Of a stretch of 42,598 bases of DNA, positions 1,173 to 38,153 are shown piece by piece. The notes beneath the pieces were generated by a model. The model did no database searches. It saw only the letters and a program-made list of their open reading frames with translations, and was not told the origin of the DNA. Each line of letters opens with the position of its first letter. Positions within the stretch are counted from its first letter, which is position 1. Source of the DNA: Bacteroidia bacterium. GTDB lineage: Bacteria; Bacteroidota; Bacteroidia; SpSt-205. A program made the translations under genes and the position numbers. The stretch lies in the NCBI GenBank assembly GCA_026414975.1, contig JAOAHZ010000014.1, forward strand, positions 1 through 42,598, written 5' to 3'.

Positions 1173-3156
1173 GTGGATAGTCTTCTAAGGTCAGCCCATG
1201 CGCTTCCTGTACAGGAGGTGGAGCGGCTCCTTGGGACTACGCCTCATGGGATTTCCATGGAGGAAGCTCAGCGTCGCTTAGAGCGTTTCGGTCCCAATCA
1301 AATCCAAAAGCCTAAGCCCCCTTCCATCGTCGGGATTTTTTTACACCAGTTTGCCAGTCCCTTTATCTACCTCCTCATGGTAGCGGCGTTGGTGGCGCTT
1401 TTACTGGGGGACCTCATAGATGCTGCGGTGATTGCTGGGGTTCTGGTTATCAACGCGGTGGTTGGTTTCTTTCAAGAGTATAATGCCGAGCGAGCGGTAT
1501 AGGCGCTTCGTTCTCTGACCGCACCTCAAGCTAATGTCCTCCGAGAAGGACGGGAAATGCGCATTCCGGCCGAACAACTGGTACCAGGAGATGGGGTGCT
1601 CTTAGAGTTTGGGGTGCGAGTGCCGGCTGATTTGAGGCTATATGAGACCATAGTATTGCAGGTGGATGAGTCTCTGCTTACGGGCGAATCGTTTCCGGTC
1701 TATAAGAATGTGGAGCCCCTTCCGGCAGAGAAGCCTTTGAGCGATAGGCATAATATGGTCTTTGCTGGTACTACCGTTACCTCTGGGCGAGGGCGAGGCT
1801 ATGTAGTAGCTTCGGGCCCTTACACAGAGCTCGGACGGATTGTGCAGAGTTTATCTGAAGCTGATTCAGCGGAAATACCCCTTGTTCGGCGGATGGAGCG
1901 GCTAAGCGAGATTCATTGGTCTTGTGATTTTAGGGAGCGTTGGGGTCATTTTGGGGGTGGCACTTCTTTTAGGGTATTCCGTCATGGAGGTGTTCAAAGT
2001 GGGAGTAGGGATAGCGGTGGCGGCTATTCCAGAGGGGCTCCCTATCGTGCTAACCGTTACGCTGGCTCGTCGCCGTGCGCTCGTGCGACGACTATCGGCG
2101 ATAGAAACTATAGGTAGCGCCACCGTCGTCGGCTCTGATAAGACAGGCACTCTTACAGAAAATCGGATGACCGTTCAGTCTTTTTGGGCTGCTGAGGGTT
2201 TCTGGGGAGTTGCAGATTATAGAGCTTCTTCGGATTCCTTCCTTCGCCATTTGGCGCTGTCTATTGGTATTTATGCAAATGAAGCGGAGATTGCGGACGA
2301 AAGTAGCCGGGAGGGTTTGAGGGGGGATCCGACTGAGACAGCCCTGTTATGGGCTGCCTGCGAAGCTGGTTTATCGCCACGGGAGTTGAGAGAGGCTCAG
2401 AAAGAGGTGAAGTGAATTCCTTTTGAGCCGGAGTTAGCCTACTCGGCGAGCTTTCGTCAGCAGGCTGATTTTAGGTATGTTAAGGGGGCTCCTGAATGCG
2501 TCCTGTCTTTCTGCGATACCATGCTCCCTCCGACTGGACTGAGGCCGCTGCGCCCAGCTGAAGTTTTGGAGGCGGCGGCTCTCTTAGCGGAGAAGGGCAT
2601 GCGGGTGTTAGGGCTGGCTTACAAACCCGACCTCATCTCCATACCTTCTGAACCGTTTGAGCCCCGAGAACTGACTTTTGTTGGGCTGGTGGGCCTGATG
2701 GACCCTCCTAGGCCGGGTGTGCGGGAAGCTATTGCCGATTGCTATGAAGCAGGTATCCGTGTTCTCATGATTACAGGGGATCATCCCGTTACAGCTCAAG
2801 CTATTGGGGTACAGATTGGGATCACTACCTCGGAGGTTCTAACGGGAGAAAAAATGGCTTCACTATCGCCGGAGGAGCTGGCAGAGAAGGTGCGGCGGGT
2901 GAATATCTACGCTCGGGTGACGCCGCATCAGAAGCTGCAGGTCGTCCAAGCGCTTCGGGATCAGGGGGAAATCGTTGCGGTAACAGGCGATGGCGTCAAT
3001 GATGCTCCTGCTCTTAAGGCGGCCCATGTAGGTATCGCCATGGGAAAGGAAGGAACGGATGTAGCTCGTGAGGCAGCTGATATTGTGTTGGCTGCTGCTT
3101 CGTCTGTAATAGGGGTCGGGGAGTTGCATAAGTGGCTTCGGCGTAAGAAAGTGTGA
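1173..3156 (+). pseudogene. Cation-transporting P-type ATPase (Ca2+/PMR1-like, type II), disrupted
   Basis: The pieces together give a type II P-type ATPase: N-terminal cation ATPase domain (GISMEEAQRRLERFGPNQI), actuator-loop LTGES (about 1677-1691), membrane motif AAIPEGLP, phosphorylation motif [10 protein letters not shown] (about 2136-2165), and hinge TGDGVNDAPALKAAHVGIA (about 2984-3040). The frame is broken by an in-frame TAG at 1500-1502 (NAERAV*ALRSL, where family members usually have Glu), a one-base insertion near 1911 (removing it gives [12 protein letters not shown]), and an in-frame TGA at 2413-2415 (before IPFEPE). It then stops at 3156 just after DVAREAADIVL, so all C-terminal transmembrane helices (M5-M10) are missing. 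It cannot make a functional pump. Start GTG 1173 is preceded by a decayed box. Two different nonsense codons, a frameshift and a truncation together argue against sequencing error. Confidence 0.9.
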
Positions 3157-3250: not shown

Positions 3251-3291
3251 TGGGGGGTGCGGCAGCGCCGAAGGCGCTGCCGCACCCCCCA
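3251..3291. repeat. Palindromic element copy 1 (19-bp perfect arms, GAA loop)
   Basis: Perfect inverted repeat with 19-bp arms (3251-3269 and 3273-3291) around a GAA loop. The centre is CAGCGCCGAAGGCGCTG and the outer arms are G6/C6 runs. The same centre and G6/C6 arms recur at 23225-23273. It lies in the 261-nt gap between the ATPase pseudogene and the convergent TamB-like gene. The ~94 nt on its left are strikingly C-poor and G-rich on the + strand; the right side is C/T-rich. No T-run follows either arm, so it is not a classical intrinsic terminator. It may be a bidirectional transcription barrier or a small mobile palindrome. Confidence 0.8.
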
Positions 3292-3417: not shown

Positions 3418-6400
3418 TTAGGGCGTACTGGGGGAAGGTAAAGAACGGCGACGTCTTTCGGGCAAATAAAAGCTCTTGCGGAGTCGGAGTCCTGCGCCTT
3501 GACTGGTAGCCCCTGCCGCCCCCCACATGAAAGTCTGCCGACTGAACCCCTCCGCCTCTAACTGCCACTGCGTCGGTTGGGTAACTCGCTTCGGAAAGAG
3601 GCGATACCGAGCCGATAGATTCCCTAAAGCGGCTGTATTCTGCCCAGGTCCTATTAAGACTCCGTCCCGTTCCAGCGTGAATCGCTGTCCCAGTGACAGA
3701 CGCAGGCGGGCGGAGAGTTCATTCCATTCTCCCAGCGCAAAAGAAACGCCGACTTGACTTCCAAGCGTATAGCCTACCCAGTTGGCTAACTGGGCGGAAA
3801 GGAACTCGGCCAAAGTAGAGCTTACCCCCGAGCTAACTTGCTGGGTGCCTACCCCTTGCTCTAACGGAACGAAAGTGCCTAAGACAAGCAAAGCAAACAC
3901 TTGCCGATTCCGTTCCTGTTCATCAGTAGCCAGCCGTTGAAGGAATAGATTCACCATCGGTGTCGGGCTGCCAGAAAGCGAAGGAATATCTATTTCAAAC
4001 TTCATGGTAGGCGAGAGAAGGGCGCCGCGCACAAAAATCTTAAGCTCCACAGGGAGTGTGTAGGTAAAGCTCGTATCTATCATCCGAAGGGAAGTAAAAG
4101 TTCTATAGGTCGCAGTGAGGTCCATCTGTCCTTGGTATAGGTCTCCATCCCATGTAATACGACTGCCAGGTTCTAAGAGGAGCTTCTTAGAAGCTATACC
4201 TTGGAGATTGACGCGGTATTCGCCGCCTTGTACTTCGTAGGACCCGGCTAAGCTGGTCTGACCGCTACGATTGATAGAAAGAAGCAAGTTGGCGGAGCCT
4301 TGCGCGGTAATCTCATCGCCCGTCCGCTCATCAAAGAGCAATCGAAACCTTGTTTCAGGCAGAGAGCGAATAGCTACCCTTACATCTACCCCAACTGGAG
4401 CTGTGAGTTGAGGAAAGCTCTGGAATGTATCTACAGGTTTGAGAAAGCGCACATGTTCTGCTCCTGTGCTTCGCTCATAGGTTCGTAAGGGAAGGGTGAT
4501 GTCTGTGCTATTAGAGAAAACGACCTCTCCGCGTACATTAGGCTGATTCCAAGGACCGGTGATGGAAAAGCTCCCCTGTTCAAGGTCCGCTCGTCCATAG
4601 ATGTAAGCCTCAGTCGTAGCTGAAGAAGCCGCAAGCAAGAAAGGCTTGTCTCTGACCTGAAGACTAAGGTTCAAGTAGGGAGAGCTCCACTGGCGTAGAG
4701 CGATATAGCCTGTGATCTGGCTGCGTTTCATTCGGCTTTCCCTTAGTTCTACACCGGGAAAGATTATCGTATCTCCTCTCAAACGGAGGACACCTTCTAC
4801 AGTGTATAAAACATGTGTGATGGGCATGTAAAAGGTGAGCTTATTACAAAAGACTTCTCCAAAAATCAAAGGCCTTTCTGGCTTACCCCGAATAATCACC
4901 CTTTGGGAAACGAACAACCCTCTCAGATTCTGGATGTAATCATTTAGAAAAGGATTCAGCCATTCCGCCGGTATTCTCAGAGAGCGCAGTTCTGCATAGA
5001 GAGGGTTTATGGTATCTTTCAGAACATACACGCCGCGTGCTTGAACAAACGAAACATCCCCTTGTCGCAGGGCGATCTGAAAAGGTATAGAATCGCCGTA
5101 GGATTCTCCCGAGGCTTGAATGCTCGGGTAAGCTTGTCCCTCGTACTGGAGAGAATCAATGTCTAAGGCAAACTGGGGCCCCCCCTCATATTCGTGCCAA
5201 TACAAGGAGAGCTGTCCCTCTAAGGGAGCATGAATGCCTAATAGGATTGCACCCAAGGCAATAGGGAAATGATGAATAGACAAGCTTAGTTTGCCATTCA
5301 ACCGGGATAGCCTAAAGCGAGTTTCCTGTCCAGCCAAGGATAGTTCGTTTAGGCTCCAGTCTCCATTTTGTAGGTCGATTAGAATGGGTGCTATCTCTAT
5401 AAAGCTCCAACGATACCTTCCCAAAGTCAGAGAGGAGGTGCGGGGTTCTATTTGGAGGAGCAATGTATCCGCTGTGCGATGCCATGAAAATCTCAGCTCC
5501 GTGGTATCGATTCGTTCGGCGAGTAACCCTTCTAAAGCCCCAGTGCCTTCTCTCCACGTGCCAATCAAATGTAAATGAAGAGCCTCGTACGCAAGGTAGG
5601 CTTGTCCTTCCGTGGAGCCAAGTTCTACTTGAAGGGAGTCTCCCGATAGATATAGGGTGAGATGAGGGGAAAAAATCTGAATATCCTCCAAGCGCAGGGT
5701 GTCGCTTATCAGATGGATCACACCCTTTGGAGCGGAGCTGTCCGCCTCTACCTTGAAATAAGAGCGTAGATTATGTAGGAAAATCCGCTGGGACAATCCG
5801 AGCAGATGGAACCACTTGGGGTCCTGTATAAGAACTTCTCCGCGCAGGCTCCACCGAGAGAGAAGGCTATCAGAAAAACTGGTATCACCTCTTATCCACC
5901 TATGGAACCAGAGGGGTAGCGCATGCATCCATGTTCCATCGGCCGTACAAAAAATAGATAAGGCTTCGCCTTGTGCCCTGCAAGTTTTGCCGTTTTGTAT
6001 GCCTAAGTTGAGATTACCCAAAGAATAGCTCGTATCAGCCCATCGCCAGAGAATATTTGATAAGCAGAGCGTAGCTTGTCCTTCTTCCCAAGGAAAACCT
6101 CTACCTTTCAAAGTAAAGGTACCGTTTAGCCACCCTTGACTACCCCAGCTTTGGGCAGCCACGCTCGCAAAGGTGCCTTCGCCCTCGTAAGAGCCGATGT
6201 CATCAATAGGCATGCTTCCTCGGTATCTCAGATTCCCATAAGGGGTCTCTAAAGCAAAAAAGCCTGAGGCCTGAATAGCCTGGACTTGACTTCGGGTCTC
6301 TAAATGCCAGGGTCTGGCCTCTTTGTCTAAAGCGGATAGATTGGCGGTCACGTCAACCTTCAGGTCTCGGACTGAGAAGCCTTGTCCAGTCAGAGTAGTT

Positions 6401-7767
6401 GTCCCAGATACCGCTTGTACGGGCGTCTCTACAAACAGGGTAGAAGGGTTCCACTGCGCTAACTGTACCTTCAAATCATAGCGCCACACGGTGTCTCGTT
6501 CCATGTAAAGGGAGAAAGAAAGCTCTGGGGTCTCTATATCGGCGGTATACCGGCTCAGTCGTCCCGTATGAGAACCTCGTATCCTCCACGCGTGTGAGGT
6601 TTGGATAATATCGGGTAAATGTACGATGTCGGGGAGGGCATTATGCACGCTACTGAGCGACAGGACGGCTTCTTGGATGGTGAGCTTCCATTCCATAGCT
6701 GCAGGTCGGGCATAATGAACGATTTCGCCGACTCCCTCAATGAATTCGTTCGGTGAGGGGGAGAGCCATAACCTTTCCGCATGAAAATGGTATAAATCTC
6801 CCCGCAAGCGTAGATTTATGTCCCATTTGCCTCGCAGAGGGAGCGAATCGCCGACGAAGGTTGCGATGTCCGCCCAATCTATTTGTCCTTGGAGCTGGGC
6901 GTAAAAGAGTTTCGTTTCCGTATCCCTGAAGAGTTTATCGAAGCCTTCGTAAGGAAACCGAGCTCGTCCTGTGATAGTAGTGCGCTCCAATCTAATGTAA
7001 AAATGAGGGATGATGGTGCTATCGGGATAACCTTGTAGGGTCAGCTCAAGGGAAGGTAACTTTGTTTGAGAGTTGCGTTCAAATAGACTGAGCCTTTTGA
7101 GCTGAGCGAAGAGATAACGGTTAGCTCGCCACTCCACTGCGCTTTCCAGCTCTAAGGAGTCTATGAAAAGGTGTTCATAACGCAGCCAGCCGTAACGGGG
7201 GATAAGCTGGTTCTCTTTCGCTGTAGAATCAATCCAGCGAAACCGCCCACCCCTCAGTGTCAGCGAAGCAAGACTTACTTCCCAGCGAGTCTCTTTCGGA
7301 GGTGTCGTATCGGAAGAGGAGAAAAGCCGATCTACATTGGTGAGTCCAGAGGCTTTTTCGGTGTAGATATACACTTCTGGGTTTTGCAGGTTCAGAGAGG
7401 AGAAGGGGATATGCAGCCTTCCATTCCAGAATCCACGCCAGAAGGCTGAGGGGTACCAAGCTAATCGCAGTTCTTGTACGCGAATAAACGGGTGACAGGC
7501 TTTGTCGTATAGCACGAAACCTTCCAAAGAAAGGTGGGCAAGCCCTGATATCCTCAGTCGTTGTAGCTCCACCTCGGTCTCCAAGGCATCCGAAAGAAGA
7601 CCTATAGCCCACTGTCGCATCAGAGCCTGTCCTCGGTCTGAGGAGAGAAAGAGATGAAGACCTAAGATAAAGCCCAGCCAAAGAAGTAAGATACTCCCTC
7701 CTGCCCAGAGAAAAAACCCGCTAAGCCACCTTAGGACTCGTGCCCAGAGCCGGAGTCGAACCGGCAC
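3418..7767 (-). CDS. TamB/AsmA-like translocation and assembly module protein
   Basis: A protein of about 1,450 residues with an Arg-rich N-terminus, one membrane anchor (FFLWAGGSILLLWLGFILGL), a very long beta-rich repetitive middle, and a C-terminal TamB (DUF490) domain. Recognisable C-terminal features are IDIPSLSGSPTPMVNLFLQRL, then RNRQVFALLVLGTFVP and an AEFLSAQLANWVGYTLGSQ stretch. Family members span the periplasm and move lipids or help outer-membrane protein assembly. The start is a problem. The frame runs through tRNA-Leu, and no ATG, GTG or TTG occurs between the tRNA 3' end (7741) and the membrane anchor. I chose GTG 7767, preceded by GGGGGAG five bases upstream, both inside the tRNA. 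The alternative is ATG 7818 in the acceptor/D region. Either way mature tRNA and TamB mRNA share sequence. Confidence 0.85.
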   Translation of the reverse strand: MPVRLRLWARVLRWLSGFFLWAGGSILLLWLGFILGLHLFLSSDRGQALMRQWAIGLLSDALETEVELQRLRISGLAHLSLEGFVLYDKACHPFIRVQELRLAWYPSAFWRGFWNGRLHIPFSSLNLQNPEVYIYTEKASGLTNVDRLFSSSDTTPPKETRWEVSLASLTLRGGRFRWIDSTAKENQLIPRYGWLRYEHLFIDSLELESAVEWRANRYLFAQLKRLSLFERNSQTKLPSLELTLQGYPDSTIIPHFYIRLERTTITGRARFPYEGFDKLFRDTETKLFYAQLQGQIDWADIATFVGDSLPLRGKWDINLRLRGDLYHFHAERLWLSPSPNEFIEGVGEIVHYARPAAMEWKLTIQEAVLSLSSVHNALPDIVHLPDIIQTSHAWRIRGSHTGRLSRYTADIETPELSFSLYMERDTVWRYDLKVQLAQWNPSTLFVETPVQAVSGTTTLTGQGFSVRDLKVDVTANLSALDKEARPWHLETRSQVQAIQASGFFALETPYGNLRYRGSMPIDDIGSYEGEGTFASVAAQSWGSQGWLNGTFTLKGRGFPWEEGQATLCLSNILWRWADTSYSLGNLNLGIQNGKTCRAQGEALSIFCTADGTWMHALPLWFHRWIRGDTSFSDSLLSRWSLRGEVLIQDPKWFHLLGLSQRIFLHNLRSYFKVEADSSAPKGVIHLISDTLRLEDIQIFSPHLTLYLSGDSLQVELGSTEGQAYLAYEALHLHLIGTWREGTGALEGLLAERIDTTELRFSWHRTADTLLLQIEPRTSSLTLGRYRWSFIEIAPILIDLQNGDWSLNELSLAGQETRFRLSRLNGKLSLSIHHFPIALGAILLGIHAPLEGQLSLYWHEYEGGPQFALDIDSLQYEGQAYPSIQASGESYGDSIPFQIALRQGDVSFVQARGVYVLKDTINPLYAELRSLRIPAEWLNPFLNDYIQNLRGLFVSQRVIIRGKPERPLIFGEVFCNKLTFYMPITHVLYTVEGVLRLRGDTIIFPGVELRESRMKRSQITGYIALRQWSSPYLNLSLQVRDKPFLLAASSATTEAYIYGRADLEQGSFSITGPWNQPNVRGEVVFSNSTDITLPLRTYERSTGAEHVRFLKPVDTFQSFPQLTAPVGVDVRVAIRSLPETRFRLLFDERTGDEITAQGSANLLLSINRSGQTSLAGSYEVQGGEYRVNLQGIASKKLLLEPGSRITWDGDLYQGQMDLTATYRTFTSLRMIDTSFTYTLPVELKIFVRGALLSPTMKFEIDIPSLSGSPTPMVNLFLQRLATDEQERNRQVFALLVLGTFVPLEQGVGTQQVSSGVSSTLAEFLSAQLANWVGYTLGSQVGVSFALGEWNELSARLRLSLGQRFTLERDGVLIGPGQNTAALGNLSARYRLFPKRVTQPTQWQLEAEGFSRQTFMWGAAGATSQGAGLRLRKSFYLPERRRRSLPSPSTP

Positions 7768-7824
7768 GGGGTCTCCCCCACCAGTTTTTGAGACTGGCGC
7801 GTCTACCTGTTCCGCCATCTGGGC
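7741..7824 (-). tRNA. tRNA-Leu (anticodon CAA)
   Basis: Reading the minus strand gives a complete cloverleaf: acceptor GCCCAGA paired with TCTGGGC, discriminator A at 7741, D-arm with AGG, and anticodon stem CCAGT/ACTGG around loop CTCAAAA (anticodon CAA, reads UUG). There is a long variable arm (GGGGG..CCCC), as expected of a class II tRNA, and a T-arm GCCGG-TTCGACT-CCGGC. CCA is not encoded. A TACCTTTG box ends 9 nt before the 5' end. Its 3' part overlaps the putative start of the TamB-like gene on the same strand. Confidence 0.95.
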
Positions 7825-7833
7825 CTCTTTGAA

Positions 7834-7841
7834 CAAAGGTA
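7834..7841 (-). promoter_or_regulatory. -7 box TACCTTTG for tRNA-Leu (and perhaps the TamB-like gene)
   Basis: Exact TAnnTTTG match on the minus strand, 9 nt upstream of the mature tRNA-Leu 5' end. It probably also drives read-through into the TamB-like gene, since no separate box is visible between them. Confidence 0.75.
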
Positions 7842-14321: not shown

Positions 14322-14324
14322 GCG

Positions 14325-14332
14325 CAAAGGTA
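14325..14332 (-). promoter_or_regulatory. -7 box TACCTTTG for the UXS-like operon
   Basis: Exact match on the minus strand, only 3 nt before ATG 14321, and 9 nt from the divergent rpmH box. The -35-side sequence of each promoter must lie in the other's initial region. Confidence 0.75.
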
Positions 14333-14341
14333 CCGAAGCTG

Positions 14342-14349
14342 TACCTTTG
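14342..14349 (+). promoter_or_regulatory. -7 box TACCTTTG for rpmH
   Basis: Exact match, 4 nt before the L34 ATG, which is independently fixed by the conserved L34 N-terminus. It forms an inverted pair with 14325-14332. Confidence 0.8.
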
Positions 14350-14353
14350 CCTT

Positions 14354-14518
14354 ATGCCGAAGCGAACCTATCAGCCCAGCCGAATCAAGCGACTACGAAC
14401 TCATGGCTTTCGGGCGCGCATGCGTACCCGATGGGGGCGCGCCGTACTTGCTCGCCGTCGTGCTAAAGGGCGCCGCGTCCTCACTGTTAGTTCTACCATC
14501 GCTGGAAAGCCCTATTAG
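14354..14518 (+). CDS. rpmH: 50S ribosomal protein L34
   Basis: 54 residues starting [20 protein letters not shown], the invariant L34 opening, followed by [19 protein letters not shown]. It is extremely basic, and its C-terminal tail ([12 protein letters not shown]) is a little longer than in E. coli, as in some Bacteroidota. It is a structural component of the large ribosomal subunit. Conserved order rpmH-rnpA-yidD follows. The start lies 4 nt after its promoter box, leaving almost no leader. Confidence 0.97.
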
Positions 14519-20348: not shown

Positions 20349-21245
20349 TTACTCTAATACTACGAGCTGCTGGGTATAAGTTAGATGTCCCTCTTCTTGG
20401 AGGGATACTAAGTATACGCCTGCAGGCAAACGCAAGGCGTGAGCGTGAGAGCCTGGTTCATACAGACCTGCATGCCGATAAACCTCTCTACCGTCCAAAG
20501 CTACAGCCCGAATGGTCAAGTGCGTGAGTTTGTTGAGCTCAAAGCGAATGTTGGTTTCCCCGAAGGAAGGATTTGGAGTGAGCTTGAATGAAATCGACGA
20601 GGGGGACCGTCCGGCGAGAGAGCTGGGAATATTGGGTGTCACGACAACAGCGTATCTGAATATCGTATCCACTCGCCCTAGAGTACCGTTGATATTAGCG
20701 GTGTCCTTATTCGCTCCGTCTCCTAAAACTGAGACGAATGCTCGTACTTTGACTCGCAGCGTGTCGGAGCCTGTTTGGGCACCTCCCTTTATGCAGACCC
20801 TAGCACAACCGATGGGTGGCGTTTGTCCCGCTGTACCCCCTGGGTTTTGGTATACAACAAAGTTAGCGGTTTTTCCTGGGTCGCTGGGATCGTAGTTTTT
20901 ATGCCGATGCAGTTGATTAAACTGAATCCCCCCGTTATCAGGATTGCTGGCATCGTATTTGAAGGGCTGTCCATTTTGGAGAGTGATCAGCCCCCTGTCC
21001 AACCTAAGGCTATCTACCCAGATAGCGTAGTTGGGATAAACGGTCAAATTCCCAAACTGTACGCCGTCGGGGAAAGTAAAATAAATAACCAGAGTGGTAT
21101 CTGTATTTGGTCGGACATACAGGGCCGGAGGATTGAACCCGAAAGGCCTAGGGCTGCGACTGTCATCAGGCGTGCAAGCTGTGCACTGACCGTGAAGTCG
21201 GATTAGCGACAAGGTCGCTGCCAAGATTAGAATGGAGTGTTTCAT
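20349..21245 (-). CDS. Secreted protein with T9SS C-terminal sorting domain
   Basis: 298 residues. It has a signal peptide (MKHSILILAATLSLIRLHGQ), then a beta-rich domain with cysteine pairs (CTACTPDD; CARVCIKGG). A typical T9SS type A tail covers the last ~80 residues: KLTPNPSFGETNIRFEL, LDGREVYRHAG, LPAGVYLVSLQEEG and LTYTQQLVVLE. The protein is expected to be exported and anchored on, or released from, the cell surface. The middle domain is not recognised. It has its own TATATTTG box and a clear intrinsic terminator, so it is monocistronic. Confidence 0.85.
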   Translation of the reverse strand: MKHSILILAATLSLIRLHGQCTACTPDDSRSPRPFGFNPPALYVRPNTDTTLVIYFTFPDGVQFGNLTVYPNYAIWVDSLRLDRGLITLQNGQPFKYDASNPDNGGIQFNQLHRHKNYDPSDPGKTANFVVYQNPGGTAGQTPPIGCARVCIKGGAQTGSDTLRVKVRAFVSVLGDGANKDTANINGTLGRVDTIFRYAVVVTPNIPSSLAGRSPSSISFKLTPNPSFGETNIRFELNKLTHLTIRAVALDGREVYRHAGLYEPGSHAHALRLPAGVYLVSLQEEGHLTYTQQLVVLE

Positions 21246-21252
21246 ACCGGTA

Positions 21253-21260
21253 CAAATATA
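21253..21260 (-). promoter_or_regulatory. -7 box TATATTTG
   Basis: Exact match on the minus strand, 7 nt before ATG 21245; divergent from the box at 21291. Confidence 0.65.
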
Positions 21261-21290
21261 CGCGCTTTCTCAAGAATGCAAACCGAGACT

Positions 21291-21298
21291 TACCTTTG
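21291..21298 (+). promoter_or_regulatory. -7 box TACCTTTG
   Basis: Exact match 4 nt before ATG 21303, which fixes the start of the acyltransferase gene rather than the earlier in-frame codon at 21237. Confidence 0.7.
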
Positions 21299-21302
21299 CC
21301 GC

Positions 21303-23132
21303 ATGGGACGGTACGAGCGTCCCCTTTTAGAGCTAAGCGAGCTTCTTCAGACTCCGTGGCAGCGGGTTGTGTATCGTTTGGCAGGTCCTTGGGTGGAGAA
21401 AATGCTTGGCATAGAGAGACTCAATCGGTTTTACGCTTTGTGTGAGGAAAGTGGTCGTACGCCTGGTGAATTTGCCCGTCGGGTTCTGGAACTCATAGGC
21501 GTGCAGTATGCGTTACCTTCTCCTTCTCAAATAGCAACTTTGCGCAGCTATTGCGGTCCCCTTGTGGTAGTCTGCAACCATCCTTTCGGTGGGATTGAGG
21601 CTATTTTTCTCGTGCTGTTCCTGAGCGAGATACGCTCCGATTTTCGCATCCTGGCTAACTTCTTTTTGGAGCGGGTTGAGGAGGTGAAAGACACTTTACT
21701 ACTGGTGGACCCCTTCGGTGGAAGCGCAGCCAAGCAATTCAATCTTCAGCCCGTCAAGCAGGCTATTCAATATCTCAAGGAGGGTGGGCTCTTAGGTATT
21801 TTTCCTTCAGGAGAGGTGGCAAGTCTCAATTTACGTACGGGGAAAATAAGAGAACCTGAATGGAACCCCTTGGTGGGGCGGCTTATTCAGCAAAGTCAAG
21901 CCGCTGCTTTGCCGCTTTACTTTCACGGCACGAATAGCTTATTATTTCATTTAGCGGGGGCTATTAATCCACGTCTACGAACCGGCCTCCTCATCCGAGA
22001 GTTTGTAAGTCCAGCCGCCCGCAAAGTCCATTACCGAGTGGGCAAACTCCTATCGCCTGAAAAGCTCCAATCTCTCGGATCAGCGGATCGCATAACGGCT
22101 TACCTTCGCAGCAAGACGTATCTCTTGGGAGAAAGCGTAGAGAGTCGGCGTCGGCGTCTGAACCTAAGACGCATACGGCAGCTACTCCCCCGTAATGCTG
22201 CAGAATCCAAAAGTATTGCCCCTCCTCTTCCTCCTGATCAAGTCTCAGCAGAACTGGAGAAACTCCCCGTATCCCAGCGGCTTCTTACCCAAGGAGAATG
22301 GTCAGTGTACTTCTTCAGAGGAAGTCAGCAGCCTCTCCTCTTGGAGGAGTTGGGACGATTGCGAGAGCTTACCTTCCGGGCTGTAGGTGAAGGTACAGGC
22401 AAACCTAAAGATATAGATGCCTTCGACTACTGGTACGACCATCTCATTTTGTACAATGAGTCTGACCGCACTATAGCCGGAGCTTACCGGATAGGACGCT
22501 GTGATGAGATTCTCCAAACCCGAGGGCTGCGTGGTTTGTATACCTATTCGCTGTTCCATATGAAGCGCCGCCTCTTTCAGGAACTTTCGCCTGCTTTAGA
22601 GTTAGGTCGCGCCTTCATTCAAGAGAAGTATCAGCGCTCGTTTGCCTCGCTTTACCTCCTCTGGCGCGGCATTGGGCAATATATTCTTACCTATCCTCAC
22701 TACCGCTATCTCATTGGTCCTGTCAGCGTCAGTGCTCAGTTTCCTGACTTATCTAAAGCCCTCCTTGCCGCATTCTTAGAAGACAAGTACGGCGACGCAG
22801 ACCTCATGAAGTCTGCTCGAGGACGTAATCCCTATACAGTGCCGAAGCAGTATCGTCAGTATTATTACACAGTATCTGTTCAGAGCCTCACTGATGTTCA
22901 AGAGCTCATAGAGGAGTTAGAGGGAAGCCATCTAAAAGTGCCTATTCTTATCAAGCACTATCTCAAAATGGGAGCTCGCATTGTAGCATTCAACATTGAT
23001 CAAGCCTTTAATGATGCGATGGATATACTGATGGTTACGGACCTCCTCACAGCTCCTCCTGCGCTAATGGTAAAGTACATGGGAGAGGAAGGGTATGAGC
23101 AGTACATGGCTTATCATCAGGCTGTGCTCTGA
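21303..23132 (+). CDS. Two-domain acyltransferase, OlsF-like (aminolipid synthesis)
   Basis: 609 residues made of two acyltransferase domains. The N-terminal half is a PlsC/OlsA-type O-acyltransferase: VVVCNHPFGGIEAIFL is the NHx4 catalytic motif (Glu where many have Asp), with GLLGIFPSGEVAS as the glycerol-phosphate-type FPxG block. The C-terminal half (from about residue 350) resembles OlsB-type GNAT N-acyltransferases: AGAYRIGRCDEI, LELGRAFIQEKYQRSFASLY, LLWRGIGQYI and YRYLIGPVSVS. In Serratia and Flavobacterium the fused protein OlsF makes ornithine lipids from ornithine and acyl-ACP; in other Bacteroidota separate homologues make glycine lipids. The amino acid used here cannot be told from sequence. 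Confidence 0.85.
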   Translation: MGRYERPLLELSELLQTPWQRVVYRLAGPWVEKMLGIERLNRFYALCEESGRTPGEFARRVLELIGVQYALPSPSQIATLRSYCGPLVVVCNHPFGGIEAIFLVLFLSEIRSDFRILANFFLERVEEVKDTLLLVDPFGGSAAKQFNLQPVKQAIQYLKEGGLLGIFPSGEVASLNLRTGKIREPEWNPLVGRLIQQSQAAALPLYFHGTNSLLFHLAGAINPRLRTGLLIREFVSPAARKVHYRVGKLLSPEKLQSLGSADRITAYLRSKTYLLGESVESRRRRLNLRRIRQLLPRNAAESKSIAPPLPPDQVSAELEKLPVSQRLLTQGEWSVYFFRGSQQPLLLEELGRLRELTFRAVGEGTGKPKDIDAFDYWYDHLILYNESDRTIAGAYRIGRCDEILQTRGLRGLYTYSLFHMKRRLFQELSPALELGRAFIQEKYQRSFASLYLLWRGIGQYILTYPHYRYLIGPVSVSAQFPDLSKALLAAFLEDKYGDADLMKSARGRNPYTVPKQYRQYYYTVSVQSLTDVQELIEELEGSHLKVPILIKHYLKMGARIVAFNIDQAFNDAMDILMVTDLLTAPPALMVKYMGEEGYEQYMAYHQAVL

Positions 23133-23224
23133 TAGGGTGATGTTTTACTTGTAGGATGATTTGAGGGGGGTGGGTTTGTCTAAGGAATAGCTTGGTGAGA
23201 GTAGGTGGGGTGTTGGGGGTATTT

Positions 23225-23273
23225 TTTAGTTGGGGGGCGCCAGCGCCGAAGGCGCTGGCGCCCCCCAACTAAA
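23225..23273. repeat. Palindromic element copy 2 (23-bp perfect arms, GAA loop)
   Basis: Perfect inverted repeat with 23-bp arms (23225-23247 and 23251-23273) around GAA, sharing the centre CAGCGCCGAAGGCGCTG and G6/C6 arms with copy 1 at 3251-3291. As there, it sits between convergent transcription units (the OlsF-like gene and tRNA-Ser), and the ~90 nt on its left are nearly C-free (about 3 C). A six-T run lies on its left edge; the right edge is AAAC. The gap 23133-23400 holds nothing else except the possible minus-strand box at 23332. Confidence 0.85.
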
Positions 23274-23331
23274 CCCTCAGCCGGAGTCTAAGTCTCAGTC
23301 ATGAGAAGCGCAAGAGCCCGCTTCCAACCTC

Positions 23332-23339
23332 CAAATTTA
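23332..23339 (-). promoter_or_regulatory. Possible -7 box TAAATTTG without a clear gene
   Basis: Exact TAnnTTTG match on the minus strand, downstream of tRNA-Ser and pointing into palindrome copy 2 about 60 nt away. It could drive a short RNA ending in the hairpin; a chance match is equally possible. Confidence 0.3.
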
Positions 23340-23400
23340 CCCAATCCTAAAAGCACGCGCCGAAGCCTTTTACCCGACGGAAGCGTATCGGTAAAAAGAG

Positions 23401-23491
23401 CGGTGAGGGCGGGATTCGAACCCGCGATACGGACTTTCATCCGTATAACAGTTTAGCAAACTGTCCCCTTCGGCCACTCGGGCACCTCACC
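23401..23491 (-). tRNA. tRNA-Ser (anticodon GCU)
   Basis: Minus-strand cloverleaf: acceptor GGTGAGG with CCTCACC, discriminator G at 23401, and anticodon stem ACAGT/ACTGT around TTGCTAA (anticodon GCT). It has the long variable arm TACGGATGAAAGTCCGTA typical of serine tRNAs, and T-arm GCGGG-TTCGAAT-CCCGC. CCA is not encoded. A TACCTTTG box ends 8 nt upstream. Confidence 0.96.
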
Positions 23492-23538: not shown

Positions 23539-24243
23539 TCATCGGAGTATCCATCCTACAGAAAAACCCATCAGAAAGATGGGGCGGCCACCTCGTCTCA
23601 GAATGAAATCTCCTACAGGGGTAAAACGATAGGAGTTAGGGGGAGCCAAAGGATTCCATTTATGGATGGTGTAACGGATAGCTAAACCCGTATACAAATC
23701 AAAGGCTATCCGAGAACCCAACTGGGCTTGATATCCGAGAAGGAATCCTCCCACAAATGCTTGAATGCTTCGTTCATAGAGTGTGCCTACTGCGAGGGGG
23801 TTGGAGGAGGGAGGATAGATGCCACTTGTGTCTATGTAGCCTAAGTTTTGATGATAGTACTGATAGCCTCCCAGCAAGCCAATATATCCGCCTGTGAGGG
23901 TATAAGTCGGTCGCTCTGGTGGCTTATCAGAGACGAAGTATTCCCGCCACTGAAAACGGGCTTTGAACCCCGTTTGCTGAAACTCTTCAGCTCTCGTTCC
24001 CACCCCGATGTCATCTCCTAAGTGCCCAAATACCCAGCCTCCCTCTACTTGAATGCTATTCTGACGGCTTGTGGGTACTTCTAAGCCCAGATGAAGGGTA
24101 TATTGGAAGGGGTCAATCATCGGAAGAGGAAAAAACTTAATCACTGGTCTTCGAAGCTGGATAATGCGATCATCCACTTCCTGAGCGGTTCCGATTACCA
24201 GAAGTCCCGTCGTTCCGAGCAGTCTAAGCAGCCATGATTTCAT
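23539..24243 (-). CDS. Hypothetical outer-membrane beta-barrel protein
   Basis: 234 residues from ATG 24243, which begins a signal peptide MKSWLLRLLGTTGLLVIGTAQ; the 73 in-frame residues upstream are Ser/Lys-rich and look non-coding. The mature part shows barrel-like amphipathic strands (YTLHLGLEV, IQVEGGWVFGHLGDDIG, LTGGYIGLLGGYQYYHQ, QAFVGGFLLGYQAQLG, IAFDLYTGLAIRYTIH), ending PIFLMGFSVGWILR. It resembles general DUF3575-type barrels but I do not assign a family. A near-consensus box TTTCTTTG lies 5 nt before the start. Confidence 0.7.
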   Translation of the reverse strand: MKSWLLRLLGTTGLLVIGTAQEVDDRIIQLRRPVIKFFPLPMIDPFQYTLHLGLEVPTSRQNSIQVEGGWVFGHLGDDIGVGTRAEEFQQTGFKARFQWREYFVSDKPPERPTYTLTGGYIGLLGGYQYYHQNLGYIDTSGIYPPSSNPLAVGTLYERSIQAFVGGFLLGYQAQLGSRIAFDLYTGLAIRYTIHKWNPLAPPNSYRFTPVGDFILRRGGRPIFLMGFSVGWILR

Positions 24244-24248
24244 TCTTA

Positions 24249-24256
24249 CAAAGAAA
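24249..24256 (-). promoter_or_regulatory. Degenerate -7 box TTTCTTTG
   Basis: One mismatch to TAnnTTTG on the minus strand, 5 nt before ATG 24243. Confidence 0.4.
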
Positions 24257-24332
24257 AGAATGCTGGCACAAACATTCGCTGCTTCTCTAAGGGCGGTGGA
24301 AGTATCTTTTTTCGGTCGCTTAGAAAAATAGC

Positions 24333-25385
24333 TTAGTGCTTTAGAAAAGAATGACCTACTTTTGGAAAGAGTTGGATGGGGGTCGGGCCCTGTTTTAGGC
24401 TCAATAGATGGATAAGACCGATTCCGACCCCGACTAATGCGAGCGTTCCTAATAGAAGCCATGATTTGACAGGCAAATAAAGGGTTATCACCATAGTCCC
24501 AACCGATAGCAGGAGCTGGGTTAGGGCTAATCCGATGGCGATAGAGCGGGCTGGTAAGCCCAACTGTCCTAAGCGATGCGTGAGGTGATCTGTTCCCCCA
24601 GTAAATGGGCTGCGTTTAGCTCGGATACGCATGACAATCACCCAGAATGCATCCCCCGCAAGCAGAGCAAAGAGCGATACAATCAAGAGGAGCTTTGTCC
24701 AGGTATCCCATGAGGAGAGGAAAGGAGCATTCCATGCTTCTGCGCCCCAATAGGCCAGAATAAAACCCAAGAATTGGCTGCCATTATCTCCCATATATAG
24801 GTAAGAAGGGTGGAAGTTTCTCATGAGGAAAGCTCCTATTGCTCCTATCAGTCCTGAGTAAAGAAGGTAGTGAGGTGTGTGAGGCAGCAGCCAGAAGGTA
24901 TTGAGCAGGAGCACGAGGCTTAGGCTGCCGGCAATACCGTCCATGTTGTCCATCATATTGAATGCGTTCATGACGGCTGCATACCAAAAAATCGTAAAAA
25001 TCACAGAGATAACCGTAACTGGTGAAACGGATAGAAGGGGACTTCCAAGAATGATAGCTATACTACCTGCTGAAAGCTGGCCCAGTAGTTTAGCGTAGGG
25101 GACAGATACATAGGCATCATCAGCTAATCCAGTGAGAAAGGCCACAACCCCTCCGGCCAGCAGGGCTCGGCTCACCTGTACCTCCATTGGCTTCCAAGCG
25201 GCGATGCCTAAGCAGACGATAAAAAATGCTATTCCGCCAATAATGGGCTTCTTTCGGCTGTCCCACCGGCGCTGATTAGGAATCCCTTGGCTGAGAGCTC
25301 CTAAGCGCCGAGCAAATCGGAGAAAAATTTCATTCCACACCCATGCAGAAAGGAAACCGACAAAAGCAGTAGCTATAGCTGCCAT
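24333..25385 (-). CDS. Undecaprenyl-phosphate sugar-1-phosphate transferase (WecA/MraY superfamily)
   Basis: 350 residues with about ten hydrophobic helices. It transfers a sugar-1-phosphate (often GlcNAc-1-P) from a UDP-sugar to undecaprenyl phosphate, starting surface glycan synthesis. Superfamily motifs are present: RKKPIIGGIAFF (first cytoplasmic loop), LTGLADDAYVSVPYAKLLGQ (DDxx), MNAFNMMDNMDGIAGS (NxxxxxDxxDGL-type Mg site), HPSYLYMGDNGSQFLGF, and TGGTDHLTHRL (the HxH-like loop). These details fit the WecA/TagO branch better than MraY. The box TATCTTTG is 24 nt upstream, giving one of the few visible leaders in the window. Confidence 0.88.
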   Translation of the reverse strand: MAAIATAFVGFLSAWVWNEIFLRFARRLGALSQGIPNQRRWDSRKKPIIGGIAFFIVCLGIAAWKPMEVQVSRALLAGGVVAFLTGLADDAYVSVPYAKLLGQLSAGSIAIILGSPLLSVSPVTVISVIFTIFWYAAVMNAFNMMDNMDGIAGSLSLVLLLNTFWLLPHTPHYLLYSGLIGAIGAFLMRNFHPSYLYMGDNGSQFLGFILAYWGAEAWNAPFLSSWDTWTKLLLIVSLFALLAGDAFWVIVMRIRAKRSPFTGGTDHLTHRLGQLGLPARSIAIGLALTQLLLSVGTMVITLYLPVKSWLLLGTLALVGVGIGLIHLLSLKQGPTPIQLFPKVGHSFLKH

Positions 25386-36381: not shown

Positions 36382-36828
36382 ATGAGGGGTGCAGTGCTGC
36401 TGGTGATGGGATGGGTTTGGGCGCAAGAGCCAGCTAATCAGCCCGTGCCTTACACGCTGGCGGATAGGGATAGACTGATACGGGTAGAAACCGAACTCAC
36501 CGCCTTCAAAGAGCAGTATCGACAAGAAATGGCCAGTCTGCGGGGAGAAATAAATGAGCTTCGCAATCAACTCTCTCGCATGGAAAGTCGCTCTGATACT
36601 CAGTTCTATGCCCTGCTCAGTTCAATCGGGGTTCTCATCGCTTCGGTCATAAGCCTGATAGGTTTCATCCTCTGGGATAGACGAAAAGCCTTAGAGCCCG
36701 TGGAGCGAGAAATAAGCCAACTGCGCCAAGACACCGCTCGGCTCACCCGCTTAGTCCAATCGCTGCGAGAGTACGCCCGTACGCATCCTGACCTTGCGGA
36801 GATACTGCGGCGGTACGAGCTGGTGTGA
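36382..36828 (+). CDS. Tandem coiled-coil membrane protein, copy 1
   Basis: 148 residues, unrecognised family. The layout is: signal-like N-terminus (MRGAVLLVMGWVWAQ, cut after AQ), linker EPANQPVPYTLADRDRLIRV, and a coiled coil (FKEQYRQEMASLRGEINELR, NQLSRMESRSD). Next come a membrane helix (LLSSIGVLIASVISLIGFIL) ending in WDRRKAL, a second coiled coil, and the tail SLREYARTHPDLAEILRRYE, almost identical in all four copies. The first coiled coil should be periplasmic and the tail cytoplasmic if the signal is cleaved. First of four tandem copies, divergent from a secreted CHAT gene remnant. Confidence 0.8.
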   Translation: MRGAVLLVMGWVWAQEPANQPVPYTLADRDRLIRVETELTAFKEQYRQEMASLRGEINELRNQLSRMESRSDTQFYALLSSIGVLIASVISLIGFILWDRRKALEPVEREISQLRQDTARLTRLVQSLREYARTHPDLAEILRRYELV

Positions 36829-36839
36829 GGTTTTTTGAG

Positions 36840-36847
36840 TATCTTTG
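36840..36847 (+). promoter_or_regulatory. -7 box TATCTTTG for tandem copy 2
   Basis: Exact match 5 nt before GTG 36853, inside the short spacer after copy 1. Confidence 0.6.
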
Positions 36848-36852
36848 ATAAA

Positions 36853-37299
36853 GTGAGAGGGGCAGCACTCCTACTGAGCCTGCTGCTATGGGCGCAGGAA
36901 GCAGCTAACCAGCCCGTGCCCTACACGCTGGCAGATAGAGATAGGCTGATACGAGTAGAAGAGCGCCTGACGAGTTTAGAGAAAGAAGTTGAGGGTATTC
37001 AAGCTCACCTCGCTCGCATGGAGACCCGACATGACTCAGACATGGCAGAGCTACGCTCCCAGCTCGCTCGCATGGAAAGTCGAAACGACACGCAATTCTA
37101 CACCCTGCTGACGATACTGATGGGGTTCATAGCATTTCTTCTGTGGGATAGGCGGAAAGCCTTAGCCCCTATGGAGAGTAAGGTTGCGGAGCTCCAAAAA
37201 GACTCTGATAAACTCACCCGCTTAGTCCAATCGCTGCGAGAATATGCCCGTACGCATCCCGACCTTGCAGAGATACTGCGGCGGTACGAGCTGGTGTGA
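36853..37299 (+). CDS. Tandem coiled-coil membrane protein, copy 2
   Basis: 148 residues from GTG 36853, chosen because it aligns with MRGA of copies 1 and 4 and follows the box by 5 nt; the in-frame TTG 36835 would add MSIFDK and cover the box. Same layout as copy 1. It carries an extra ~18-residue stretch in the first coiled coil, where LARMET/SR recurs (HLARMETRHDSDMAELRSQ then LARMESRND), a local duplication. The membrane helix is of the LLTILMGFIAFLLWD type, shared with copy 4. Linker reads EAANQPVPYTLADRDRL. Confidence 0.78.
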   Translation: MRGAALLLSLLLWAQEAANQPVPYTLADRDRLIRVEERLTSLEKEVEGIQAHLARMETRHDSDMAELRSQLARMESRNDTQFYTLLTILMGFIAFLLWDRRKALAPMESKVAELQKDSDKLTRLVQSLREYARTHPDLAEILRRYELV

Positions 37300-37310
37300 G
37301 GTTTTTTGAG

Positions 37311-37318
37311 TATTTTTG
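37311..37318 (+). promoter_or_regulatory. -7 box TATTTTTG for tandem copy 3
   Basis: Exact TAnnTTTG match 5 nt before GTG 37324, in the spacer after copy 2. Confidence 0.55.
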
Positions 37319-37323
37319 GTAAA

Positions 37324-37737
37324 GTGAGAGGGGCCGTACTCCTACTGGGCCTGCTGCTATGGGCGCAAGAGCCAGCTAATCAGCCCGTGCCCTACACGCT
37401 GGCTGATAGAGATAGATTGATACGAGTGGAGGAGCGCCTGAGGAGTTTAGAGAAAGAAGTCGAGGGCATTCAGGCTCAACTCGCTCGCATGGAAAGCCGT
37501 TCCGATGCCCAGTTTTACACATTGCTGAGCTTGATTGGACTCATGTTAGCCTCTATCGCAGGGCTGATTGGATTTATTCTCTGGGACAGAAGAAAAGCAT
37601 TAGAACCTGTACAAAAAGAAGTAAATGAGCTCCGCAAAGATTCAAGCAAACTCAGCCGCTTAGTTCAATCGCTGCGAGAGTATGCCCGCACCCACCCAGA
37701 CCTCGCAGAAATACTGCGGCAATATGAGCTAGTGTAA
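37324..37737 (+). CDS. Tandem coiled-coil membrane protein, copy 3
   Basis: 137 residues from GTG 37324 (MRGAVLLLGLLLWAQ). First coiled coil EERLRSLEKEVEGIQAQLAR; membrane part LLSLIGLMLASIAGLIGFIL resembles copy 1 rather than copies 2 and 4. The second coiled coil (VQKEVNELRKDSSKLSRL) is more diverged, and the tail ends ILRQYELV. The mixed pattern suggests exchange between copies. Confidence 0.78.
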   Translation: MRGAVLLLGLLLWAQEPANQPVPYTLADRDRLIRVEERLRSLEKEVEGIQAQLARMESRSDAQFYTLLSLIGLMLASIAGLIGFILWDRRKALEPVQKEVNELRKDSSKLSRLVQSLREYARTHPDLAEILRQYELV

Positions 37738-37747
37738 GTTTTTTAAG

Positions 37748-37755
37748 TATCTTTG
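37748..37755 (+). promoter_or_regulatory. -7 box TATCTTTG for tandem copy 4
   Basis: Exact match 5 nt before GTG 37761. Confidence 0.6.
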
Positions 37756-37760
37756 ATAAA

Positions 37761-38153
37761 GTGAGAGGGGCAGCACTCCTACTGAGCCTGCTGCTATGGG
37801 CGCAGGAGCCAGCTAACCAGCCCGTGCCCTACACGCTGGCGGATAGGGATAGGCTGATACGAGTAGAAGAGCGCTTGACGAGTTTAGAGAAAGAAGTTGA
37901 GGGTATTCAAGCTCAGCTTGCCCGCATGGAGAGCCGAAACGACACGCAATTCTACACCCTGCTGACGATACTGGTGGGGTTCATAGCATTTCTTCTGTGG
38001 GATAGGCGGAAAGCCTTAGCCCCTATGGAAGCCAAAGTGGCAGAGCTTCAGAAGGACGGCGATAAGTTGAGTCGTTTAGTCCAATCGCTGCGAGAGTATG
38101 CCCGTACGCATCCTGACCTGGCAGAGATACTGCGGCGGTATGAGCTGGTGTGA
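37761..38153 (+). CDS. Tandem coiled-coil membrane protein, copy 4
   Basis: 130 residues, the shortest copy. Signal MRGAALLLSLLLWAQ, linker EPANQPVPYTLADRDRL, one coiled-coil unit (LTSLEKEVEGIQAQLARMES), membrane helix LLTILVGFIAFLLWDRRKAL, second coiled coil (APMEAKVAELQKDGDKL) and the conserved tail. It closely matches copy 2 but lacks the 18-residue duplication. After it the array ends, and the M28 peptidase gene converges 81 nt away with no visible terminator. Confidence 0.78.
   Translation: MRGAALLLSLLLWAQEPANQPVPYTLADRDRLIRVEERLTSLEKEVEGIQAQLARMESRNDTQFYTLLTILVGFIAFLLWDRRKALAPMEAKVAELQKDGDKLSRLVQSLREYARTHPDLAEILRRYELV

Follow-up and report, generated by a model that had tools for sequence, protein, structure and literature searches.

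The stopping of two converging transcripts without a U-tract is poorly mapped outside model species, and several described systems can be set beside the element analysed here. U-less hairpin terminators of mycobacteria and other bacteria have been called 'I-shaped'; they have the same stable stem without a U-tract, while the palindromes described below differ in their conserved arms, their symmetric skewed flanks and the separate U-tract class that coexists with them. The REP/BIME palindromes of enterobacteria are likewise dispersed near gene ends without U-tracts; however, the genus studied here lacks a Y1 transposase, and the REP-type hairpins of E. coli, sampled over 250 kb, carry no skew. 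Rho termination of the E. coli gal type, in which an upstream hairpin becomes the trimmed 3′ end, resembles our case in a U-tract-independent hairpin that is followed by C-rich, G-poor RNA; Rho is present here too, and the final 3′ end would again lie at the hairpin. Unlike the gal type, the palindrome here is symmetric for both strands, belongs to a recurring sequence family and is approached through G-rich sequence, and the action of Rho on it is one that we infer. The bidirectional intrinsic terminators of Bacillus cereus, as far as the excerpted text of PMC5381666 describes them, also provide one hairpin for two converging genes and show compensatory changes in the stem, whereas the palindromes here have no A-tract or U-tract and possess near-perfect arms of about 17 bp, a triloop and skewed flanks. 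The palindrome and its flanks are best read as a variation on a known termination architecture.

The window, that is, the whole stretch of DNA analysed, comprises 42,598 nucleotides of contig JAOAHZ010000014.1 from a Bacteroidia bacterium. The features on which the argument rests are as follows (skew is GC skew).

3251 to 3291, no strand: copy 1 of the palindrome family, with perfect arms of 19 bp around a GAA loop and flanks skewed at +0.76 and -0.29
21237 to 23132, + strand: gene of 631 aa with GNAT acetyltransferase (PF13444) and acyltransferase (PF19576) domains, converging on the palindrome at 23225-23273
23133 to 23224, + strand: approach flank, which is the 3′ UTR of the 631-aa gene; G 43%, C 3%, skew +0.86
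23225 to 23273, no strand: perfect palindrome with 23-bp arms around a GAA loop; proposed to form the hairpin that closes both convergent transcripts at their 3′ ends
23274 to 23399, - strand: approach flank on the tRNA-Ser side, serving as exit flank on the + strand (skew -0.31, taken across 90 nt)
23400 to 23491, - strand: tRNA-Ser (GCT), converging on the same palindrome from the opposite side
23539 to 24462, - strand: ORF of 307 aa upstream of tRNA-Ser on the same strand, no Pfam match

The arms of the palindrome (23225-23247 and 23251-23273, 23 nt each) are 100% complementary with GAA between them, just as the original prediction had described, and the RNA of either strand folds with -50.3 kcal/mol (z about -11). 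Chance alone would not be expected to produce a perfect 23-bp triloop hairpin in 43 kb. The sequence leaving the stem is CCCTCAGCC on the + strand and AAATACCCCC on the - strand, and neither has a T-run directly after the stem. As in intrinsic terminators, the RNA hairpin is GC-rich and lies close to the 3′ end of a gene; the U-tract that should directly follow it is absent on both strands, and the claim that this is not an ordinary U-tract intrinsic terminator was borne out; like bidirectional terminators, the palindrome lies between convergent genes. At gathering score, Rfam matched only two tRNAs in the window and left the palindrome unmatched, and it likewise returned only tRNAs at five loci of the palindrome family. 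Copy 1 has the same core with different outer arms and sits between the convergent ORFs 2521-3156 (+) and 3418-7836 (-). Gene calls were made with a home-made hexamer model, in which errors are possible in places; it called a spurious gene 14 nt to the right of 23225-23273, where the real neighbour is tRNA-Ser.

Further family members, on whose existence the original prediction depended, were found: the core AGCGCCGAAGGCGCT has 13 matches in the 2.2-Mb genome to which the window belongs (G000, hereafter the home genome) and a reversed-pattern control has 0. Of the 10 remaining genomes of the genus, 3 contain the core; in a set of 60 related genomes to which the home genome belongs, 5 contain it, namely 4 of the 11 of the genus and one of another genus, in which the match is a 7-bp arm inside an ORF. 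An exact 27-nt string of arm plus loop matched two MAGs labelled Bacteroidia bacterium, SKYG57 and SKYB95, from an isolate series that we take to be of hot-spring origin. When 198 genomes were drawn from the class, the 27-nt version of the arm motif occurred in 3, all of this genus (which contributed 6 of the 198), and in 0 of the 192 from other genera. As far as sampled, the family is dispersed and confined to one genus of Bacteroidia MAGs. Searching with an unconstrained loop gave 23 copies of GCCAGCGCCNNNGGCGCTGGC in the home genome, with presence in 8 of the 11 genomes that represent the genus, and 4 copies of GGCAGCGCCNNNGGCGCTGCC, with presence in 4 of 11; both patterns are palindromic, so every place is listed on both strands. 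Many contigs of relatives end inside or near a palindrome (L015, L018, L019, L022, L024-L026, L029-L032, L182), which suggests that palindromes break the assemblies of these MAGs, and family counts in fragmented genomes are thus lower bounds. At L003 (1461-1525), L020, L023 and L193, two or three different palindromes, mostly with triloops, stand side by side, for example a GGCGGCAGCC-type stem adjoining an AGCGCC-type one. In the congeners G002 and G004 (L021, L032, L171, L190), palindromes extend as T-run, stem, A-run, a polarity opposite to the A-run, stem, T-run of a bidirectional intrinsic terminator.

To place the family among other hairpins, every hairpin was scored in 843 kb of the home genome and in 400, 200 and 200 kb of three congeners, and two classes were distinguished. 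The first has stems with a median of 12 pairs and loops of 3-7, followed by T-runs, and accounts for 20 hairpins at gene ends; the second has U-less GC stems with a median of 17 pairs that mostly begin in a G-run and almost always carry a triloop, and a stricter rule fixes it at 23 palindromes. In the 843 kb, 11 of the 15 U-less GC palindromes lie between convergent genes. Counting gaps of 40 nt or more, the share with such a palindrome is 11 of 59 for convergent gaps, 3 of 142 for tandem ones and 1 of 65 for divergent ones (Fisher p 2e-5; this and the other p-values are optimistic, since copies share ancestry and three palindromes of congener G005 have common flanks). The neighbours of the 13 GAA copies are convergent in 9 cases, tandem in 3 and divergent in 1 (several analyses combined). 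Most convergent gaps of the home genome contain no palindrome element, which counts against reading the element as a two-way end. At gene ends without a palindrome, one script found U-tract terminators in 5 of 116 cases in the home genome and in 18 of 96 in G005; the U-less class may have replaced U-tract terminators in the home genome.

The earlier observation that outer arms differ between copies while pairing stays perfect holds in each of the 13 core copies: their perfect arms span 15-23 bp, and the copy at 23225-23273 has the longest. Among the GCCAGCGCCNNNGGCGCTGGC copies loops vary and inner arms are fixed; a GNA triloop is present in 41 of the 67 copies found by the search with an unconstrained loop (hand count), which are related by descent, so that binomial figures on these triloops are inflated. 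Arms are perfect in 21 of 23 U-less palindromes versus 13 of 20 U-tract hairpins (Fisher p 0.06), a surplus that is only suggestive. Given this excess and the varying loops around fixed inner arms, copying from arm to arm is at least as likely as selection on the RNA. Template switching is known for quasipalindromes, and since a GC stem of 17-23 bp works without perfect pairing, arm copying of this kind would be a natural source of the perfection. The prediction had held the pairing to be selected or copied; the perfect pairing stands, and either process may be its source.

The strongest clue to mechanism, which the original prediction did not contain, is the mirror-image composition of the flanks. 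Read inward, about 100 nt on each side of a palindrome are G-rich and C-poor, so that the RNA leaving it is C-rich and G-poor. At our locus, 23133-23224 read on the - strand is the exit flank of the opposing transcript and its proposed Rho loading region; it is strikingly C-rich and G-poor, beginning ACCCCCAACACCCCACCTACTCTCACC. Inward G-richness was found here in 42 of 44 flanks of 22 palindromes (mean 0.36), a count that omits one palindrome with adjacent Ns as well as the home-genome hairpin C46:90289, which has a AGGGGTCTC arm and no skew and was removed by hand from the U-less set (it is also absent from the Rho-descriptor scores, the gene-start comparison and the class counts). For copies of other species, mostly outside the hairpin samples, 46 of 49 flanks were positive (mean 0.33), with a minimum of 60 nt set for flanks and of 10 for arms. 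The pooled inward composition of 31 3′-UTRs is A 0.23, C 0.16, G 0.35 and T 0.26. Among hairpins at gene ends, the mean skew is -0.05 for the U-tract class (n 20) and +0.34 for strong U-less hairpins (n 24; p 1.2e-7), a comparison that keeps both C46:90289 and the N-adjacent palindrome and in which C56:32334, U-less in the descriptor, gene-start and class counts, is U-tract on one side. Skews are 0.02 and 0.10 in the two halves of hairpin-free convergent gaps and average 0.009 in coding sequence. A script of the same type, run on 250 kb of E. coli K-12, gave 0.06 for 26 U-tract hairpins and 0.03 for 41 others, which include REP-type hairpins.

The skew stays about level to 100-120 nt from the palindrome and then declines. 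It extends into coding DNA within 100 nt (0.335), reaching 0.58 at third codon positions against a background of -0.03. It is equally strong before gene starts, on the exit side of tandem sites (0.37, n 9) and at divergent sites (0.40, n 2), as after gene ends (0.35), and a cause at the level of DNA therefore stays alive. The two divergent sites, L009 (genes confirmed by Pfam) and C54:7012, offer no evident transcript that would end at them. Skew on the tandem exit side is expected under a Rho model and divergent skew is not; the G-richness on the approach side of tandem sites would be needless for one-way termination and counts against the two-way-end reading. Because 5′ flanks are skewed too, a simple 3′-UTR effect was ruled out as the source. 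G-quadruplexes were also rejected (36 G-runs of 4 or more and 5 C-runs in 3067 nt, with about 30 expected from the G content alone), as were palindrome arms in decay, since the two flanks of one site resemble each other no more (8.95) than flanks of different sites do (9.71). A search for a Chi-like or other flank motif gave no k-mer above a modest excess. The family and order outgroups, of which only 105 kb and 63 kb were covered, have one strong hairpin each, neither with mirror-image skew. Searches of the open-licence literature turned up no title or abstract on palindromes that lie at the ends of convergent genes and have mirror-image GC skew.

According to the excerpted text of PMC6407284, RNA that loads Rho has at least 70-80 nt, more C than G and spaced cytosines, and the length of the skewed flanks, about 100-120 nt, is similar to this need. 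A descriptor scripted after RhoTermPredict, as that excerpt presents it (78-nt segment, C/G threshold, regularly spaced C), found rut-like segments with C/G of 2 or more on 36 of 46 exit sides and 1 of 46 approach sides, against 3 of 21 after U-tract terminators, 12 of 98 in hairpin-free convergent gaps and 150 of 1164 in antisense coding sequence (12-14%). C/G exceeds 1 in 42 of 46 exit flanks, so that Rho-type exits are found at family level, and for 23225-23273 itself the flank skews are the evidence. All 11 genomes of the genus encode Rho (TIGR00767). For E. coli, the excerpted text of PMC9927376 reports that RNAs ended by Rho are trimmed back to a stem-loop.

On either strand, polymerase would first make about 100 nt of G-rich, C-poor RNA that should not load Rho, so that the message would stay uncut before its end; the approach would in this way shield the untranslated stretch. 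The very stable hairpin would be transcribed next, followed by C-rich, G-poor RNA on which Rho could load and free polymerases that have passed the palindrome and would otherwise continue deep into the opposing gene. Trimming by 3′-to-5′ exonucleases as far as the hairpin would leave a stable 3′ end, a cap for both RNAs. Since structure and composition are their own reverse complement, one element could serve both converging genes. We give about an even chance to this symmetric two-way transcription-end element, in which the hairpin caps both RNAs and Rho stops passing polymerases; it is likely that Rho, rather than the stem alone, is the stopper, and the loading, trimming and blocking at these palindromes are what we infer. 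Bidirectional transcript ends with 3′ protection, which combine two of the options named in the original prediction, fit best with the placement (11 of 15 convergent) and the rut-like exits. Only tentatively would we go further and propose a genus-specific two-way insulator whose signal is mirror-image composition and not a motif, with a G-rich, Rho-immune approach and a C-rich, Rho-loading exit on both strands that reach into silent sites of adjacent coding sequence, and with a hairpin family that spreads and stays perfect by arm copying.

The comparison of gene ends across relatives bears on this role. After the right-hand gene of L010, a hairpin lies 18-33 nt beyond the stop codon at all 8 loci of relatives for which there is sequence, T-runs follow it in 7 of the 8 by our reading, and the home genome has a U-less palindrome at +26; judged by sequence, this gene end supports independently a putative role at transcript ends. 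The 631-aa gene was found in 10 of 10 relatives with no palindrome after any of them, and their downstream sequences differ from that of the home genome, so that the missing palindromes carry no information. At the L003 gene end, flank sequence was available for 9 relatives, and only in G005 does it contain a palindrome, of different sequence; the G005 match stops at the gene end and the neighbour is not homologous. At the L012 gene end, 0 of 9 relatives have one.

Several observations could instead follow from an element acting at the level of DNA, a hairpin or cruciform that is corrected and copied by template switching, with skew from strand-biased mutation or repair (or from a DNA-binding role), a secondary effect on transcription, and convergent gaps serving as harmless insertion sites. 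C(GNA)G triloops are very stable DNA mini-hairpins and make up the 41 of 67 copies counted above, the arms are nearly always perfect (21 of 23), inner arms are fixed beneath variable loops, exact arms recur throughout the genus, and the skew ignores gene direction and enters coding DNA. The base change is the wrong one, however: cytosine deamination, including the transcription-coupled kind that we rejected, would yield T, and instead G replaces C with little gain of T. The strong preference of U-less strong palindromes for gene ends and the defined length of about 100 nt, which fits Rho loading, also speak against it, and we regard this account as possible but unlikely.

That the hairpin alone halts polymerase in both directions, with skew merely keeping the flanks unstructured so that it folds, agrees with the very stable fold (-50.3 kcal/mol) and with the replacement of a U-tract terminator by a palindrome at L010, but leaves unexplained why the genus keeps U-tracts on other hairpins and why those lack skew; we consider it quite improbable. 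A REP-like palindrome moved by a tyrosine transposase would match the dispersed, multi-copy, intergenic occurrence, yet the REP-associated Y1 transposase (PF01797) is found in 0 of 11 genomes, with a positive control in E. coli, and no flank sequence is common to the copies, so that this option is highly improbable. Of the original interpretation, the two-way end, the non-U-tract character and the family stand, a mobile palindrome of REP type is disfavoured, and arm copying is at least as likely as selection.

Rho sites are normally hard to read because they leave no sharp mark. If the two-way transcription-end reading is right, Rho-dependent two-way ends could be read in this lineage from sequence alone, as a palindrome with a flip of skew, and would offer a clean case in which the needs of termination reshape the final 100 nt of adjacent genes; a mutational origin would instead make the skew a rare footprint that strand-biased mutation leaves around palindromes. 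Elsewhere in the window, a separate hairpin, GCAAAGGTACCGAAGCTGTACCTTTGC, lies without skew in a divergent gap at 14324-14360 and is possibly an operator, and 36382-38153 holds four tandem copies of a unit of about 420-470 nt, seen as consecutive ORFs of 130-154 aa.
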